A DNA stretch of 64,000 nt, taken from contig JAMAHW010000047.1 of the NCBI GenBank assembly GCA_023627715.1, positions 1 through 64,000 of the forward strand, written 5' to 3'. Under the pieces are notes generated by a model. The model worked only from the letters and a program-made list of their open reading frames with translations, was not told the origin of the DNA and made no database searches. How positions within the stretch are numbered: the stretch's first letter is position 1; every line of letters begins with the position of its first letter. Source of the stretch: Periconia sp. R9002 (Eukaryota; Ascomycota; Dothideomycetes; Pleosporales; Periconiaceae). Position numbers and translations under genes: made by a program. Positions 54,384-64,000 of the stretch are shown piece by piece.

Positions 54384-55326
54384 GTTGTAGATCTGGTTCG
54401 CGGCGATGTATTTGTTGTTATCGTGACTTGTTTTGGGCTTTTTGGGATATCAGGGAAAATTGAGAGCGGCTCGTGGTAGGAGAAATGGTTATGAGACTGG
54501 AAGAATTTTTTACGAGCCAGAATAGAATATCAGAGAGCTATATATACTGAAGACCCGTGAAAGTTCCGAGTAGCTCGACGCACTGCAACAGCATTGTTAT
54601 GAATGTTTTTAAGCATTCTCGGCGATGTGCGGGTCTTGAATTACTCAATTCGGGAAAGATATGCTTGGTCAAGATCATGCATAGTGAGTAATCAATAAGA
54701 ATATCTGGCAATTAGAGGTATAGGCAACTGAAAGGCGAAGTCATTCGAACGATGCAAGGCAAGGACGAAGGTAAGCATAGTGTATGCCGCGCACTAAGCA
54801 GCGGACCAGGATTAGATTAACGACGATGCTTGTCCGCACTTTTAGCGATCTTCATAGGCGGCTTAGCCAGGGACCCACCAGGCTAGAGCACTTTATACTT
54901 TGTAAGGTGCATGGATCAAAAACTCCCAATGTAAGACTGCCAATATCCCATGCCAATTAGAAATACATACAGCGAAACGACAGCACTTTCTTTTTACTCC
55001 TTGCTTTACCAATCCATTCACGAATCGATGATTACTCACCCGCTTGATTTATTAGGGTTGGTTGGGCAGTCTGGCGCCGCACTATACCAGAGGCCTACCT
55101 TACTCTTGCGTATCACATTATTTACTGCATAATTTCAAAGCAGCTCTAAGCAGACAAATCACGCTTACAATCCCGCAGACCTACATCCAAGCCGAGATAT
55201 TGTCCTCCCCTGGCAAAAAAGATAAAGCTGCCCAGTGGAGACAACATCATTTTACTTCTGCTCGCCTTTTTCGTTGTGTTCCCGTTACATTTTTCTGAAC
55301 TTGGTATTCATAAATTCACTGGAAGT
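54384..55326. promoter_or_regulatory. divergent promoter, MFS exporter and MDR enzyme
   Basis: 943 bases between two outward-facing starts. It contains copy 2 of the CGGACCAGGATT...GTCCGCAC element. No other site was recognised. Confidence 0.5.
54802..54839. repeat. CGGACCAGGATT...GTCCGCAC element (copy 2)
   Basis: It begins CGGACCAGGATT and ends GTCCGCAC, in the same arrangement as copy 3 on the opposite strand, with a longer middle. It is a diverged inverted repeat lying in the divergent promoter between the exporter and the MDR enzyme. Confidence 0.6.
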
Positions 55327-56421
55327 ATGAAGGCCATTTACAGCCAAGAAGGCCACGCTGCGGCAGTGGGCAACTATCCAATCCCAGCCCTTCGGCCTAC
55401 ATATATTCTCGTGAAGGTTCACGCTGTAGGCCTCAATCCTCTCGACTTCAAGCTCATCGATTTTGTGGGGCTTCCGAATCGCATGCAAGGCTGTGAGCTT
55501 GCAGGGGTTGTTGAAGAAATTGGGGACGAAGTCACTGTGCCTTATCAAAAAGGCGATCGCATCGCTGCACTTGCCCATGGCGGCAATGCAGATGAAGTGG
55601 AAGATGGCGCCTTTGGGGAGTACGCGGTTGTGAAGGGTGACGTTGCCATCAAGATACCCGAGTGGATGAGCTGGGAAGAAGCAAGTGTCATTCCTATGGG
55701 TGTATACACTGCAGGCATGGGTCTATACCAACACTTGGGTCTGCCGTGGATTGACAAAAAGGAGGGGCAAACAAAAGGTACTCCGCTGCTAATATATGGC
55801 GCAAGCTCCGCAATGGGGATGTATTGTTTGAAATTGGCCAAACTGTGAGTGAGATTGTCACAGGATAGAACTAGGCTAACTCTTCGCAGCTCGGATCTCG
55901 AAATATACGCAACCTGTTCGCCTCACAATTTCGACCTAGTCAAATCTCTCGGAGCTACTCACGTGTATGATTACAACTCCCCTACATGCGGTTCTGACAT
56001 TCGCCGGGACTCTGAAAATGGAATCTTCCTTGCATACGACTGCATCTCCGAACAAAGTTCGATTCCGATCGTCTCGGACGCGCTCTCCAGCGATACTGTA
56101 AAACGAACCCCTATCCACCATGTTTTGCGACAGTTTCTCACGTTTCCGCGCGATGATGTCAAGATTACATACTCTTTGAGTTTCACGATACTGGGAGAGA
56201 GTTTTGGATACATATCTGGCTCGCGTTTTGAAGCCTCGGAGGACGATTTCAACTGGGCGATCAACTTTGGTCAGACGATAAGCAGACTTTTGGAAGACAA
56301 GGTCTTGGAGCCAATTTATCCCACTGTCGGAAAGGGTGGGCTGGATGAAGTGCTGGATGGAATTGATCTGTACAGGAAGGGCCAGGTGAGCGGGCAAAAG
56401 ATTGCATACAGGATTGCCTGA
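55327..56421 (+). CDS. MDR-superfamily oxidoreductase, trans-enoyl reductase-like
   Basis: Two exons, 55327-55844 and 55890-56421 (45-base intron, GTGAGT donor, GGCTAAC branch), give 349 residues. The GroES-like N-terminal part contains VHAVGLNPLDFKLIDF and GCELAGVVEEIG. The Rossmann part has LLIYGASSAMGMYCLKLAKL. The zinc-ligand cysteines of true alcohol dehydrogenases are absent, as in the zinc-independent trans-acting enoyl reductases of fungal polyketide pathways (LovC-like) and the toxin-cluster reductases annotated as ADH domain proteins. It would use NADPH to reduce an activated C=C bond. No polyketide synthase is present in the window, so the partner, if any, lies elsewhere or the substrate differs. 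Confidence 0.88.
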
Positions 56422-57212: not shown

Positions 57213-58853
57213 TTATGTTTTTGTTCTTCGAGTACTGATCAGGTCTCCTTGATGAGGGACTTGCAAAGCCGGCCAGATTTCATTAAGATTGTCCAATCGC
57301 TCGAGATATTGATCTACGGAGGGGTTAGCACATCAAAACCGCTCTATGCATATTGACTTACCCGCCAGCCTCCATCGTAGGGAACATCGCCTAAGTATCT
57401 TTTTGACTGATTCGATTTGTCTGAGGTGGATCGTACTGTTGTTCGTCTTCCAAAGCCGGTATTGTACGATTGCTGTTTGGCACAACGAATATGGAAGATA
57501 AGGCGAGAATATCTCCGGTGGATAATCTCCTTTCAAGTCGCCGTACGACGCTTCTGCAAAATTTATGGAGGCCAATGATACGTCTTCAATACACTGGAGG
57601 ATTCTTTCGATATCGACATTGTTACCAATGCTTAGCATGGTCTCGTAGAGGATGTAAAGGGCGCTGTCCACAGTGTTATGCAGTTCCTAAAGGAATAATG
57701 GTGGGCTCCTAACCTATTACACATCCCGAAAGCAGCACAGTATTTGCCAATTTTCAATTCCTCGGCCGCGAGTAGTGGCAGATAAGCCCGCAGGGTGCGC
57801 TCCAGCTGCGCAGCTTCTTTCGCGTTAAATTCAGGATCTGGTGTTGGTTTCAGCACATGTCGTACGACCGAGCCGACCAGATTCGATATCTGACACTCTC
57901 GTGCCATTTGTCCCACGGAAACACTGAGCGGCGTATCTAACGAAGGAGGTGAGCTGATTTTTTCGTGGAGATCATCGGGGGACAATGCCTCCGTCCACAA
58001 CAGGTCGTCGATTGGGAGCGGATCTGTCCTTTCCGGATCATCCGTTAGGAACAAATCGTCTCCGTTACACAGGCTAATAAATCTGTCCATAATAACGATG
58101 GACCACCAGGCTCTCTTCATTTCCTCTAATTCAATGGGATCAGATTGTAGTTGGTCATAAATCCAAGGCTTTCTATTCAGACCAAGTACACGTGCTGCTC
58201 GCGCACATGAAGCAACTGATAGGTATGCTGCCCTATGAAGACCATGACCCATCTCGTAGAATGTAACTAGAATTTTGCAATGAAGAAGATCAATGGAGAG
58301 ATCGTTTGCCATCTCAAGCACGCCAATGATATTCTTCACTGTCGAATAAAGCGATGAATGTGGATTGGTCGATTTCGATGGCAGTTGCTGGACAAGGAGA
58401 ATGGAGAGACACAAAGCTGCGAAGTCTGCACGTGGCTGTCCTGCGGTGAATGATGGAAAATTTTTGTAAAATCTGAACCTGGATAGTGCCGGGATCCGTT
58501 GATGTGTCCCAGTAAAAAAGGCAGTTGACATGATGTGTATGCTTTCAGGTGAGCCAAGAATTCGTATTGCCATATTTGATGTGTACTGCTCAAAGTTTTC
58601 TAGGCTGGGGACTCCTATATTTAGCAAACCTGAGCTCAAGGAAGATGGCACGCTGATTTCCTGGTGAGTAGCGAAGTGAGTTTCGATCGTATCCTCTCTG
58701 TAGGTACAGGCCCTGTGCAATCTAAAACATAGATTTTTTTCAGCAAGAGCTGGGTTCGCTCAATGTAAAAGCTTACCGAAAACAATTCGAGCAGGTTGGT
58801 CTCTTTCTGTCACACTTCCGTTTGCCATTCTTACAAAATGTGCATGCGTTCAT
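57213..58853 (-). CDS. Zn2Cys6 transcription factor, candidate cluster regulator
   Basis: Four exons (58777-58853, 57714-58721, 57362-57663, 57213-57313; introns of 55, 50 and 48 bases) encode 495 residues. The first intron interrupts the zinc cluster. After splicing it reads MNACTFCKNGKRKC, then TCSNC, then FRLHRAC, which is C-x2-C-x6-C-x6-C-x2-C-x6-C at residues 4-31. The middle is the fungal_trans fold (RAARVLGLNRKPWIYDQL, MKRAWWSIVIMDRFISLCNG). The last exon (DQYLERLDNLNEIW) is found only by using the GTAAGT donor at 57361 and the TGCTAAC branch. It lies between the MDR enzyme and the repeat-peptide precursor, so it is the natural candidate regulator of this locus. Confidence 0.88.
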
Positions 58854-59997
58854 TGTAGAACAGTCCGGTGAAGTTGAGATAAGTCTAATAGGCTCCTGAA
58901 AAAGCACGGGGTTTTTCGAATTGGAGAAGAAGAACGGTGGTGCCGGAAGGTAATGCAGCCGGAGGTGGCATTCCCGGAAAGGATACGGTTTGGGCTCTGT
59001 AAGAATGGCGCTAAATCATTTGGGGCTAGTCTATACGGGTGCTAACTTTTCGCACGAAGGAGTAAGCATCGTGCGACTCACTGTTTAGGTAGAGAAAGTG
59101 AGGATAATGAAGTGAAAATATGTTTGCAATCATTTTTAAAGGTGATCCTGCGATTTATGATCCAAATGAACTTCGGTAGTCGTTCCGACGCATCCGTTCT
59201 CCATGATCTGTCATTCGGCGATTTGAGCTTGATTTCTGGGATGATGCCGTTTGCAGAGATCCTGCATGGCAGCGGAAGTCGAGTTCGAAACCTTATTCCC
59301 AGTCAGTTCATACTGATCTGAAAAGTTGGAATAGCATTAATTCGTTAAATCGGTTTGTTCCCCACGAAGCTGGGGTTTCGGTTATAAGTACATATCAATA
59401 AGGCAAGTATTGAAGTAAATTAGGGTTGTTAGGCTTGAGCTTCAGAGAAAATTGAAAATTGGATGTAGGGCAGAAACATCTGGTTTGAGATATATTCGCC
59501 ATCAGTCTTTGGTTGTCTAGAGATTGCACTAGGTATTGATAGAATAAACAGCTCTTACGCGTAAAGCTAAAGGATTGAGAGTAGTGTACACCGTAACTGC
59601 TATTAAATTCGAGAGCATCTGAATACATGATAAAAAATGGTTGACGGAGTGTGTTGAGTATGCCACTGAAGTGCAAAGTCATGCCTCTACCCGCCCGGCC
59701 CATACTTTTCGGTTATTACCCAATATGGATGGTGTATATAATTTCTGGAGTACCTACTAGATGTACATGTCACAGTGTACTCATGGTGGAATGTATTTTC
59801 AATATGTATATTCTACGAGCCGAGATGAATTTGCAGTACTAGGAATCCCTACAAAAACTCTATTCGTCTTGAGCGCTGACATGAGGACCAAAACACAACC
59901 TCAAGGATAGTATATCTCGAGCTCAGAAAGTCCATACTAACGGTACTTGATGCGCTTTTAAAGCAGTACAAGGTCTGCATGAAGGCTCATATCGACC
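58854..59997. other. intergenic, nothing recognised
   Basis: 5' flank of the regulator and 3' flank of the peptide precursor. Short frames (up to 103 codons) on both strands have no conserved features. Confidence 0.4.
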
Positions 59998-60312
59998 TCA
60001 ATATCCAGTAACGGGGCCACTTGGTGGATCGACCATGTGTTGTCTTTTCTCCGGGGGGTCAACCATATGCTGTCTCTTCTCTGGAGGGTCAATCATGTGC
60101 TGTCTTTTCTCTGGTGGGTCGACCATATGTTGTCGCTTTTCTGGGGGGTCAACCATATGCTGGCGCTTCCCAAGAATGATGCTGGGCACAGCGTGCCTGA
60201 GATCTCCGATAAAAGAGTTGGCGCTACCTGCATCACGTCCCCCAATGAAGATTGGGCTAGCAGAGGTGCCGGCTGTGAGAACGGTAATGATAGCAACGAT
60301 AGAGACTTTCAT
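59998..60312 (-). CDS. secreted Kex2-processed repeat-peptide precursor, candidate RiPP precursor
   Basis: A single-exon 104-residue protein. Residues 1-18 form a signal peptide (MKVSIVAIITVLTAGTSA). A leader of about 30 residues (with GGRDAGSANSFIGDLRH) ends in GKR. Then come five tandem ten-residue units (residues 51-97) of QHM(V/I)DPPE followed by KR; the last unit reads QHMVDPP and ends in SGPVTGY. Lys-Arg between units is the Kex2/KexB site, so the Golgi should release several copies of one short peptide. This architecture is that of dikaritin precursors (UstA, PhomA, AprA) and of fungal KEP proteins. The units lack Cys, Trp and the Gly-Gln of alpha-pheromones. I chose the ATG at 60312 because it starts the signal peptide; the longer frame to 60465 has no ATG. 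The neighbour at 61827 encodes a UstYa-like protein. Confidence 0.85.
   Translation of the reverse strand: MKVSIVAIITVLTAGTSASPIFIGGRDAGSANSFIGDLRHAVPSIILGKRQHMVDPPEKRQHMVDPPEKRQHMIDPPEKRQHMVDPPEKRQHMVDPPSGPVTGY
60022..60168 (-). repeat. five tandem 30-base coding repeats
   Basis: Each 30-base unit encodes Q-H-M-V/I-D-P-P-E-K-R. Units differ at the third bases of Gln, His, Val, Pro, Glu and Lys codons and by CGA versus AGA. The only amino-acid change among the full units is one Val to Ile. The array includes the leading Lys-Arg at 60163-60168. Confidence 0.92.
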
Positions 60313-61826
60313 CTTGAAATATTTGCAATATAGAATGAATTGACTGTCGAGAAATCGGAGAGATGTCTGTTGTCGAAGCAAAGAACCATGGAACAAACAC
60401 TTCTTATATGCCTTCGAATAGGTCATCCCCGACTTCTGTAGCTCGGCAAAAGCAAGTATTTGCAAAACATTTGACTAGTAATATTGCGGTAAAGATGTCC
60501 ATGTTGCATCCACTCTATGATATGCGTCTTTATCACGGCTTCTTTATTGGTTACCAATTACCCGCCCGGAAATAACTCCAGCTACGTATACATGGTTCAA
60601 TGTTGACATCAGATCTTAGTCCCATACATAATGTCATTACCCGTGGATTCCCATCTCTAACCACTTAGAAAGCTTGTTGGATTGTTTCAAACGTCTCATA
60701 TTACCTACGCCTACGTCAGGTATAGGTTCATTTTGAGTATACCTTCCGACACTAGTTGCTTACAACAGTGCAGAGGTCCTGATAAGCTTTGGCTAAAACT
60801 ATGCCAAGCTTCAGTCAAGATGTGAAAATTGCTTGAGTGGCGACAAGTCAACGGCGAAAGGTCCTAAAGGGAAAGAATAGGATTCCGCTTGGGTGTATAT
60901 TAGAAGCTTGATACGGGAAGATCAGCAAAGTACGAAAAGCTTCGGTGTACCAGGACTATAGCTTAGTGTCAGCAAATGTTTACGCTTACCTATTTTTATT
61001 TGGCTTCTCCTGTTGCTCTATTGTACCAGAGTTTGGCCTGTGTAAATTTGAATCTGCAGTATAGAAATCTCGAGAAAACTGCAATCTCGACACAACACAT
61101 GGAGAATGACTATATAACAAGTGTATCAAAAAGGCCTTCGGTATGACTACTTTTAATGGAAGATCATCGTGTAGGTCTGAAATACTGCGCACGCACCATT
61201 TGAAGGATTATAATGTACAAGCAGGGCGTATGTGGCGCGGGGCGTAAGAAGCTTGGTCAGCAAAGTCAAACTAAAGAGTAGGATTACAAGAGACAATCTT
61301 GCCACTATCTCACTCACTGAAGTCCAACCTGTCCCATTGCATGGCCACTCTCCACTCCGTGAGCAAGCAAACCGCAGACTAGTTACACCGCATTTTTGCC
61401 ACCCAGACGTCACAAATCAGTCGTGAAATCCACTGAATAAGGAAATGCTTGTTATCGCGCGAGAACCACCGGAGAACGAGGTGAAACACTTGGTTGAAAA
61501 GTGGGCAATGCTTGCTGTGAATGGCTAGGTTATACTCCTTATCAAAGACTGGGGAATGCTTCCTTCAGCGCTAGAGGAATCCGAGAAAGTCTGATACATT
61601 GCTGGCATGGGCTAACAGCATCACTATCACTGTAAACCCGAACCTTTCGAAGGCTAGTTGAGGGTTATAATTACCTCCCTAAGTAAAAAACCCTTTCATC
61701 TCACTCCACTCCATTCTCCTCTCTCAATCTTACTATATACTTGGGTACACCGTTCAAGATCTACTGCGCCTGGTATCAGCACCTTCATATCCAATATCAT
61801 CTTGTCATTATTCAAAAGCAACAAAA
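60313..61826. promoter_or_regulatory. divergent region between peptide precursor and UstYa-like gene
   Basis: About 1.5 kb between two outward-facing starts. The 3' end (61690-61826) is a CT-rich leader with a TATATACT-like box near 61732. A minus-strand frame of 86 codons at 61153-61413 has one hydrophobic stretch but no ATG support or conservation that I can see. Nothing else was recognised. Confidence 0.45.
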
Positions 61827-62549
61827 ATGGGAAAACGGTGGTCAACATCAGAGAAAGAACCGTTTCTCTCAGATGACTCTTTTAAGATGCGACACCGCCA
61901 GGCATGGAACGCGAAACTCGTTGCAATCATCTGGCTCACAGTGCACGTTGTGCTCTTCGCAATTCTCGGTAGCATCCTAGTCGTGACCTCTGAGAATAGA
62001 ATTCTCAAAGCTATTGCTTCAAACGCACCGTATTCCCTTACCAGCCAACAAGCAATATTTGGCGGACTGACCGTACAAAACGACGACCAAAATGGCCCCT
62101 ACGTCATCTGCCCAGAAGGGGATCCATCCGCTGCTCTTCAGGCGGGTTGCAAATTTGACCTTTTTGCTAATGGTTGGTCGCCGGCTCCTTGCTTCGATGA
62201 AGAATTGCACACCTTCTTCGTGAACCAACGGGACTATTATTTCTGGGCGGACAGAGAAAAACAACATCGTGTACCCCAGGAAAAAATACTCAATGGAACC
62301 AATGAGTACCCAGAGTTGTTTGTTAGCTTCGAGGAGCACTATGAGCACTGCCGGTATTTGCTTAATGGGACACTCAGGAATGCTCGAGATCCGTACCGTG
62401 GGATCCTGGATATTTATTTGGAGCCAGGGCATCTGGAACATTGCATCGATTTCTTGAAGGAATCTAGGGATCCGCACTACGTGGAAGAAAATGTAATCGC
62501 GTACTTCGGCTACAACAAGTGTTTCCTGCCGCGCCATAGTGGTGTTTAG
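61827..62549 (+). CDS. UstYa-like membrane protein with paired HxxHC motifs
   Basis: An intronless gene for 240 residues in a strong context (CAAAAATGG). A cytosolic N-terminus of about 30 residues is followed by one signal anchor (residues 31-53, LVAIIWLTVHVVLFAILGSI), then a lumenal domain. It has two HxxHC motifs, HYEHC at 171-175 and HLEHC at 202-206 followed by IDFLKE. This paired motif defines the UstYa (DUF3328) family, whose members carry out oxidative macrocyclisation and related steps on dikaritin peptides and on cyclochlorotine. The segment GCKFDLFANGWSPAPCFDEE before it is typical of a poorly studied sub-branch with the GCxFD and WxPxxC pattern. Its topology places the domain in the secretory lumen, where Kex2 and the precursor at 59998-60312 also travel. 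Confidence 0.78.
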   Translation: MGKRWSTSEKEPFLSDDSFKMRHRQAWNAKLVAIIWLTVHVVLFAILGSILVVTSENRILKAIASNAPYSLTSQQAIFGGLTVQNDDQNGPYVICPEGDPSAALQAGCKFDLFANGWSPAPCFDEELHTFFVNQRDYYFWADREKQHRVPQEKILNGTNEYPELFVSFEEHYEHCRYLLNGTLRNARDPYRGILDIYLEPGHLEHCIDFLKESRDPHYVEENVIAYFGYNKCFLPRHSGV

Positions 62550-63261: not shown

Positions 63262-64000
63262 CTAAATATCAGCCTTCAGCTGTTTCTCCACATGTGCCCA
63301 AAGTCCAGCCGGACGGTAACCCTCAAGCCAATAGTTGCCCTTAGAGTCCTGGCCTGTCACAATGAAACCATCAGGATAAGCTATTCCGCTCTGAATCTGC
63401 GAAACGAAAGACGGGTATAGAGGAATATTCAACTTAGTTTCACAAGCCACCGAGAAGTCAATCGCGTTGACTTTCGCCTTTGTCCAATTTGAATAGCCTA
63501 TGTGGTTCATGTTCGGCTTGCCAAATAATATGGGCATTGGACCAAGTGGCCATGCATTCCTTCTGCCCATGCTCCAGTACGCTTCAATTTGCTCACGGGT
63601 TCCATGCTTATTGACCCCTCGCCGAAGTTCCCATGCTAGGAGTCCCAACGATGATTCGGTTTCCTTTTTTGTCTTCAAGACACTTGTAAAGCTAAGGCAG
63701 TTGGAAATATAAGGCTTGTCGGAAGGTAGAAGATCGTTCTCAAGAGCGCGTCGCATAGACATAGCCTGCATTATCGTCACAGGCTTTTCTGGAGGCAGAT
63801 GAGAAAAGGCAAGACTAGAGAACCACGCGGTAATCAGATCATTGTCCGTCAGAAATGTGTCTTCTCTTCCCTCTTGTCTCAGATCCTGCAGTGCTCTTTC
63901 TCGAAGCTTCTTCATGAAAGAGGCGGGGATACAGAGAGTCCTTGTTTCTTTGGATCCCACCGCGATATTGTAACCATTCCTTAAGGCGTAAGATGCTGTA
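63262..64000 (-). CDS. BAHD-like acyltransferase, C-terminal part (runs off the window)
   Basis: The frame is open from the stop at 63262 to the window end, so the N-terminal part, with the catalytic HxxxD, lies beyond 64000. The visible 246 residues show RTLCIPASFMKKLRERALQD, then DNDLITAWFSSLAFSHL, ALENDLLPSDKPYISNCLS, and YSNWTKAKVNAIDFSVA (at the DFGWG position). This order fits fungal CoA-dependent BAHD-type acyltransferases, such as those of the trichothecene acetyltransferase-like group common in metabolite clusters. The apparent start at 63960 is a GTG inside the frame and not a real start. A role in acylating the peptide or another product of the locus is inference. Confidence 0.75.
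   Translation of the reverse strand, partial: TASYALRNGYNIAVGSKETRTLCIPASFMKKLRERALQDLRQEGREDTFLTDNDLITAWFSSLAFSHLPPEKPVTIMQAMSMRRALENDLLPSDKPYISNCLSFTSVLKTKKETESSLGLLAWELRRGVNKHGTREQIEAYWSMGRRNAWPLGPMPILFGKPNMNHIGYSNWTKAKVNAIDFSVACETKLNIPLYPSFVSQIQSGIAYPDGFIVTGQDSKGNYWLEGYRPAGLWAHVEKQLKADI

Follow-up and report, generated by a model that had tools for sequence, protein, structure and literature searches.

We found that the minus strand at 59998-60312 of the window (the whole stretch of DNA that was analysed, 64,000 nucleotides of contig C47 of Periconia sp. R9002) encodes the precursor of a Kex2-processed repeat protein (KEP), and that a divergent gene for a UstYa-like protein with two HXXHC motifs adjoins it. 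We lean, with some reserve, towards reading the locus as a RiPP-like pathway, in which Kex2 and Kex1 would release the peptides and the divergent double-HXXHC enzyme would oxidise them.

Precursor gene and its relative

Translation of the minus strand gave a 104-residue protein whose length, leader and repeats agree with those described in an earlier note on this DNA. Frame 1 of the plus strand over these positions gave no such protein. The order of the parts is MKVSIVAIITVLTAGTSASPIFIGG...LGKR, four QHM(V/I)DPPE-KR, and then QHMVDPPSGPVTGY-stop. The earlier note had counted five KR-bounded units. This holds for units 1 to 4; the fifth consists of QHMVDPP and the seven-residue tail SGPVTGY, ends at the stop and has no KR on its far side.

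59998-60312, minus strand: KEP precursor gene, one open frame of 104 aa (translation; unit codons under purifying selection; relative P0003)
60259-60312, minus strand: predicted signal peptide, residues 1-18, end placed by eye (hydropathy; 8 of 18 residues identical to P0003)
60163-60258, minus strand: leader, residues 19-50, with LGKR at its end (17 of 28 residues identical to P0003 over residues 19-46; LGKR identical)
60139-60162, minus strand: unit 1, QHMVDPPE, then KR (translation, codon comparison)
60109-60132, minus strand: unit 2, QHMVDPPE, then KR (translation, codon comparison)
60079-60102, minus strand: unit 3, QHMIDPPE, then KR (translation, codon comparison)
60049-60072, minus strand: unit 4, QHMVDPPE, then KR (translation, codon comparison)
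60001-60042, minus strand: last unit, QHMVDPPSGPVTGY, then stop (translation; tail (S/T)GPxxGY common to P0003, 4 of 7 residues identical)
60404-60408, minus strand: TATAA, 96 nt 5' of the precursor ATG (motif match only)

The N-terminus of the precursor was found to be strongly hydrophobic (best 11-residue window 2.68, at residue 3), and the T-S-A end of the predicted signal peptide was set by eye. The published KEP criteria are an N-terminal signal peptide and three or more tandem repeats, each 8 aa or longer, flanked by Kex2 sites (PMC7329392); the precursor has four 8-aa units between KR sites. The earlier description of a Kex2-type repeat precursor with a secretion signal is supported, the signal by hydropathy. 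The repeated core QHM(V/I)DPPE contains no Tyr, Phe or Trp, and His is its only aromatic residue. The sole Tyr of the precursor is its final residue, in the tail of the last unit.

We compared the codons of the five 7-codon cores. The repeat peptide is very probably translated and selected, because the core differences, pooled over the 10 pairs (which are not independent), comprise 34 synonymous and 4 amino-acid-changing ones (pS 0.86, pN 0.023). Variable sites were found at six of the seven third codon positions, at one of the seven first positions and at none of the second positions. When the same seven variable columns were placed at random, at most one variable residue resulted in 1 of 20,000 trials (0.00005), with a mean of 4.46.

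The earlier note had proposed a search of the precursor against proteomes. Such a search, run against about 5.8 billion proteins with matches accepted to E 10, returned one relative of the same build, P0003 (JGI, 84 aa, E 8e-26), and a renewed search from P0003 returned only P0003 itself. P0003 has three units in all, namely QHMIDPPE, QRMIDPPE and QHMIEPPTGPADGY. Identity between the two precursors extends over the signal region, the leader, LGKR and the tail as listed above, and 5 to 7 of 7 core positions are identical depending on the unit pair. Across both precursors, position 4 is the beta-branched Val or Ile in all eight units and position 2 is His in seven; the exception is one of the three P0003 units, in which His is replaced by Arg. 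The matching C-terminal end of P0003 supports a gene model for the precursor that would need no additional exon. No second copy of the precursor was found in the host genome (42.9 Mb, 267 contigs).

UstYa-like neighbour and its subgroup

The genes around the precursor were characterized by family scans of their open frames.

61827-62549, plus strand: UstYa-like protein, 240 aa, one membrane helix, two HXXHC (Pfam scan, family alignment, hydropathy, model)
62337-62351, plus strand: first HXXHC, HYEHC, residues 171-175 (family alignment)
62430-62444, plus strand: second HXXHC, HLEHC, residues 202-206 (family alignment)
57632-58900, minus strand: gene for a Zn2Cys6-type transcription factor, apparently spliced and with approximate limits (PF04082, 53.7 bits over 57632-58720; CTFCKNGKRKCDRKRPTCSNC in another frame at 58782-58844)
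63265-64000, minus strand: PF02458 acyltransferase-like gene, its frame running past the window to C47:64551 (whole frame 25.1 bits against a cut-off of 22.7; part within the window 15.6 bits)

The UstYa-like gene starts 1.5 kb from the precursor gene and is divergent from it. The earlier remark that such a gene sits beside the precursor was borne out, with both HXXHC motifs present, though the protein scores 13.4 bits against the Pfam UstYa cut-off of 25. That cut-off was reached by no subgroup member scanned. In an alignment of the neighbour with its relatives (16 members), nine have a UstYa match with an E no higher than 1 (lowest 0.012), and both HXXHC motifs are kept in 14 of the 16 rows, the other two rows being incomplete there. 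A profile comparison with seven canonical UstYa fragments gave a probability of 34.8 and an E of 0.0004, and the match was confined to 42 columns around the motifs. A PDB profile search with the UstYa-like alignment returned nothing up to E 1. The named relatives are from Beauveria thailandica and Xylariaceae sp. FL1272, in addition to a UniRef entry filed under firefly.

The two motifs of the neighbour lie 31 residues apart, and a double HXXHC in a clustered enzyme serves as a dikaritin marker (PMC12048977). Its membrane helix has a hydropathy of 2.56 over 19 residues from residue 34 and appears as a helix at residues 29-65 in the AlphaFold model. The model is poor (mean pLDDT 48); in it, both motifs sit on predicted helices near the C-terminus. 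CctR, which catalyses the hydroxylation of a C-H bond, is proposed to bind two coppers at HxxHC(x)nHxxHC, and alanine mutants of this motif lose activity (PMC12435403). The copper ligand residues are present in the sequence of the neighbour, which may bind copper in the same way.

We searched the genome in six frames with three subgroup members as queries, considering the best candidates only. Among these, all three queries returned the same six genes at four loci: three on contig C100 and one each on C136, C105 and C47. An alignment of the six genes, two of them as fragments, contains eight invariant columns, including the first H..HC, and a block with Cys108, Asp111, Pro119 and Cys122 is common to the neighbour and its five paralogues. 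Of the four loci, C47, C100 and C136 each showed a KEP, which makes three of four, or two of three when C47 is left aside, a count with no matched control stretches behind it. On C100, subgroup and canonical UstYa genes accompany a KEP with units such as TNIYPGVKYPGDADEVAKR, 2.1 kb from the closest member. On C136, a distance of 2.4 kb separates the subgroup member from a frame that contains KR repeats of the DAPWYRDS type. No KEP was found in the 7.2 kb of C105 examined, a stretch that ends at the contig end. These KEPs beside other subgroup members are the main new support for the earlier remark on UstYa. A scan of 12 UstYa-hit loci (of 61 hits; 1.5 kb flanks), blind to spliced genes and to wider flanks, found a KEP at none.

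The Zn2Cys6-type gene may be assigned to a cluster with the precursor only by position, and the PF02458 acyltransferase-like gene is no more than a possible member. Further away, the plus strand at 55150-56421 contains a gene resembling those for alcohol dehydrogenases. Its frame is interrupted by a stop at 55846-55848, for which an intron is the simplest explanation.

Proposed processing and alternative readings

In the proposed pathway, the precursor chain would enter the secretory pathway by way of its signal peptide. Kex2 would cut after each KR, Kex1 would trim the KR, and the N-terminal Gln would close to pyroglutamate. We propose this processing for the precursor because of published KEP biology, in which the N-terminal Gln of many KEP peptides occurs as pyroglutamate (PMC9769878). 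Each precursor would yield pyro-QHMVDPPE three times, pyro-QHMIDPPE once and, as a longer product, pyro-QHMVDPPSGPVTGY; their calculated [M+H]+ values are 935.393, 949.408 and 1467.657. One P-domain match was found in the genome, in an 859-aa open frame on contig C29, and this protease is presumably Kex2. The neighbour, as a membrane-anchored lumenal oxidase of the DUF3328/UstYa type, would alter the peptides before secretion. We infer cleavage, trimming, pyroglutamate formation, copper binding and modification at this locus; that the peptide is modified, and so a RiPP in the strict sense, we only infer. Our guess is that the peptide acts towards other organisms rather than in mating.

In favour of the RiPP-like reading we counted the architecture, the mostly synonymous divergence of the units, P0003, the P-domain protease, the membrane helix and both HXXHC motifs of the neighbour, the proximity of subgroup members to KEPs, and the published data on CctR, on DUF3328 genes beside KEP genes and on pyroglutamate. 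Against it we counted the sub-cut-off UstYa score, the weak profile comparison, the Cys missing after the second HXXHC, the poor model, a core devoid of Tyr, Phe and Trp, the P0003 unit in which Arg replaces His, the contig comparison described below, the lack of a tyrosinase match on C47 and the 12 UstYa loci without a KEP. A more specific version, which we regard as speculative and unlikely, is a histidine counterpart of the dikaritin reaction, in which the enzyme would join the imidazole of His-2 to the beta carbon of Val/Ile-4. The Tyr-Ile link of ustiloxin has the same i to i+2 spacing. The beta-branched residue at position 4 in all eight units speaks for this link and the unit of P0003 with Arg for His speaks against it. 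If the link is real, the subgroup would represent RiPP enzymes overlooked by searches relying on the UstYa Pfam model.

The precursor could also be a KEP whose products are linear peptides, modified by no more than pyroglutamate, that serve as a secreted signal or act towards other organisms, with the UstYa-like neighbour belonging to another pathway. We consider this the main alternative and a serious one, though less likely than the RiPP-like reading. The KEP peptides detected in four mushrooms are linear and minimally modified (PMC9769878), for 6,120 of 7,878 KEPs the 15 closest genes include none of the DUF3328 type (PMC7329392), and a core with His as its only aromatic residue would suit such a product. 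In addition, a longest contig is listed for 14 of the 15 UstYa-like relatives, and none of these equals that of P0003 (37,633 b). This comparison revealed no contig common to P0003 and the relatives of the neighbour, and so no linkage in a second genome. The adjacent, divergent arrangement of the two genes argues against unrelated pathways, as do the KEPs that accompany the same enzyme subgroup at two of its three other loci.

An uncleaved repeat protein of the wall or surface would equally have repeats and a secretion signal. We rejected this very unlikely reading because of the KR between all units, the LGKR before the first unit that is kept in P0003, and a length of only 104 aa; by eye, the precursor also has no GPI-kind hydrophobic C-terminal tail. 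The alpha-pheromone precursors of ascomycetes, which are alike in general architecture, have a WCxxxGQxC-type core. Translation of the 104-aa precursor reveals no such core, so we rejected a sexual pheromone of the alpha type as highly improbable, in agreement with the earlier note. A pheromone-type candidate was located elsewhere in the genome: at C90:114787, a pattern match reads KRDPKAEAEAFAKAWCRFVGQPC-stop, with the ending WCRFVGQPC, and is likely the end of an alpha-pheromone gene (one of eight matches, where the reversed control pattern gave two). Apart from three cases, KEPs annotated as pheromones are located away from DUF3328 genes (PMC7329392). Finally, an open frame without coding function would have to account for both the synonymous excess between the units and the existence of an 84-aa relative; this was rejected as having almost no probability.

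Relation to known systems

The earlier note had named the gene the best candidate for an undescribed peptide system. The type of system is known and its design is common in fungi: 7,878 KEPs were reported in 1,345 of 1,461 strains. DUF3328 genes occur alongside 22% of these KEPs and peak at the position adjoining the KEP gene (PMC7329392). The precursor resembles these KEPs (PMC6339444, PMC7329392) in its predicted signal peptide, leader, four KR-separated octapeptides and terminal unit. It resembles them also in the rarity of its core, as 2,560 of the 7,878 have no homologues (PMC7329392). It differs from them in that QHM, DPP, HMVD, HMID and VDPP are absent from the main texts of PMC6339444 and PMC7329392, whose supplementary tables may list them. 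Motif strings of the QHM-type unit had no match in open-licence PMC full texts, in line with the earlier claim of a novel octapeptide. Within these full texts and the main texts of the two surveys, no description of the peptide was found.

Dikaritins of the ustiloxin, phomopsin and asperipin type share with this locus a KEP precursor beside a double-HXXHC protein. In ustiloxin, asperipin and phomopsin, a core Tyr is the site of the ether links, and 65.6% of the repeats in KEPs near DUF3328 genes contain Tyr (PMC7329392). The locus differs in the Tyr-less repeated core, in the neighbour falling below the UstYa Pfam cut-off, and in its surroundings: C47:1-64000 gave no match to canonical UstYa, and none of the 32 tyrosinase matches in the genome lies on C47. 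We do not claim dikaritin membership because the core has no tyrosine and the Pfam cut-off is not reached. Di-histidine KEP types without Tyr do exist beside DUF3328 genes (PMC7329392), so Tyr-less cores are not unprecedented. The neighbour is similar to DUF3328/UstYa enzymes of the CctR type (PMC12435403) in its N-terminal membrane helix and two HXXHC motifs. It differs from them, as do its five paralogues, in the Cys108/Asp111/Pro119/Cys122 block, and it has no Cys ten residues past the second HXXHC, where all seven canonical loci in which both motifs are seen carry one.

Should the peptide prove to be both processed and modified, fungal RiPP chemistry would extend to a core without aromatics other than His, and the locus would point to a small enzyme subgroup that the UstYa Pfam model does not call but that lies beside KEP genes. 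Cluster mining that relies on this model would overlook such loci. If the peptide is linear, it would be another KEP among thousands.

The KEP at C100:88989-89663 is alike in lying beside members of the same UstYa-like subgroup and differs in its Tyr-rich 17-residue units and in the canonical UstYa genes that are also there. The surrounding region, C100:81839-93010, is a rich cluster of the dikaritin type, in which this Tyr-rich KEP is accompanied by several matches to canonical UstYa and by three UstYa-like genes of the divergent kind. Two other genes combine repeats and double motifs. The minus strand at C136:17949-18941 contains a 331-aa frame in which KR-separated DAPWYRDSAAS-type repeats are followed, in the same frame, by a domain with HQYHC and HVIHC. 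This is an apparent fusion of a repeat precursor and a UstYa-like domain; it matches no Pfam family at a meaningful score and has a possible signal-peptide exon in an upstream frame. The plus strand at C11:439811-441063 has the same build, with NWYSDSAAG-type KR repeats followed by HQTHC and HAIHC. The repeat strings tried had no match in open-licence PMC full texts. The C11 gene spans two frames, with a likely intron, shares 52% identity with residues 89-324 of the C136 protein, and is close to a canonical UstYa match at C11:438133.
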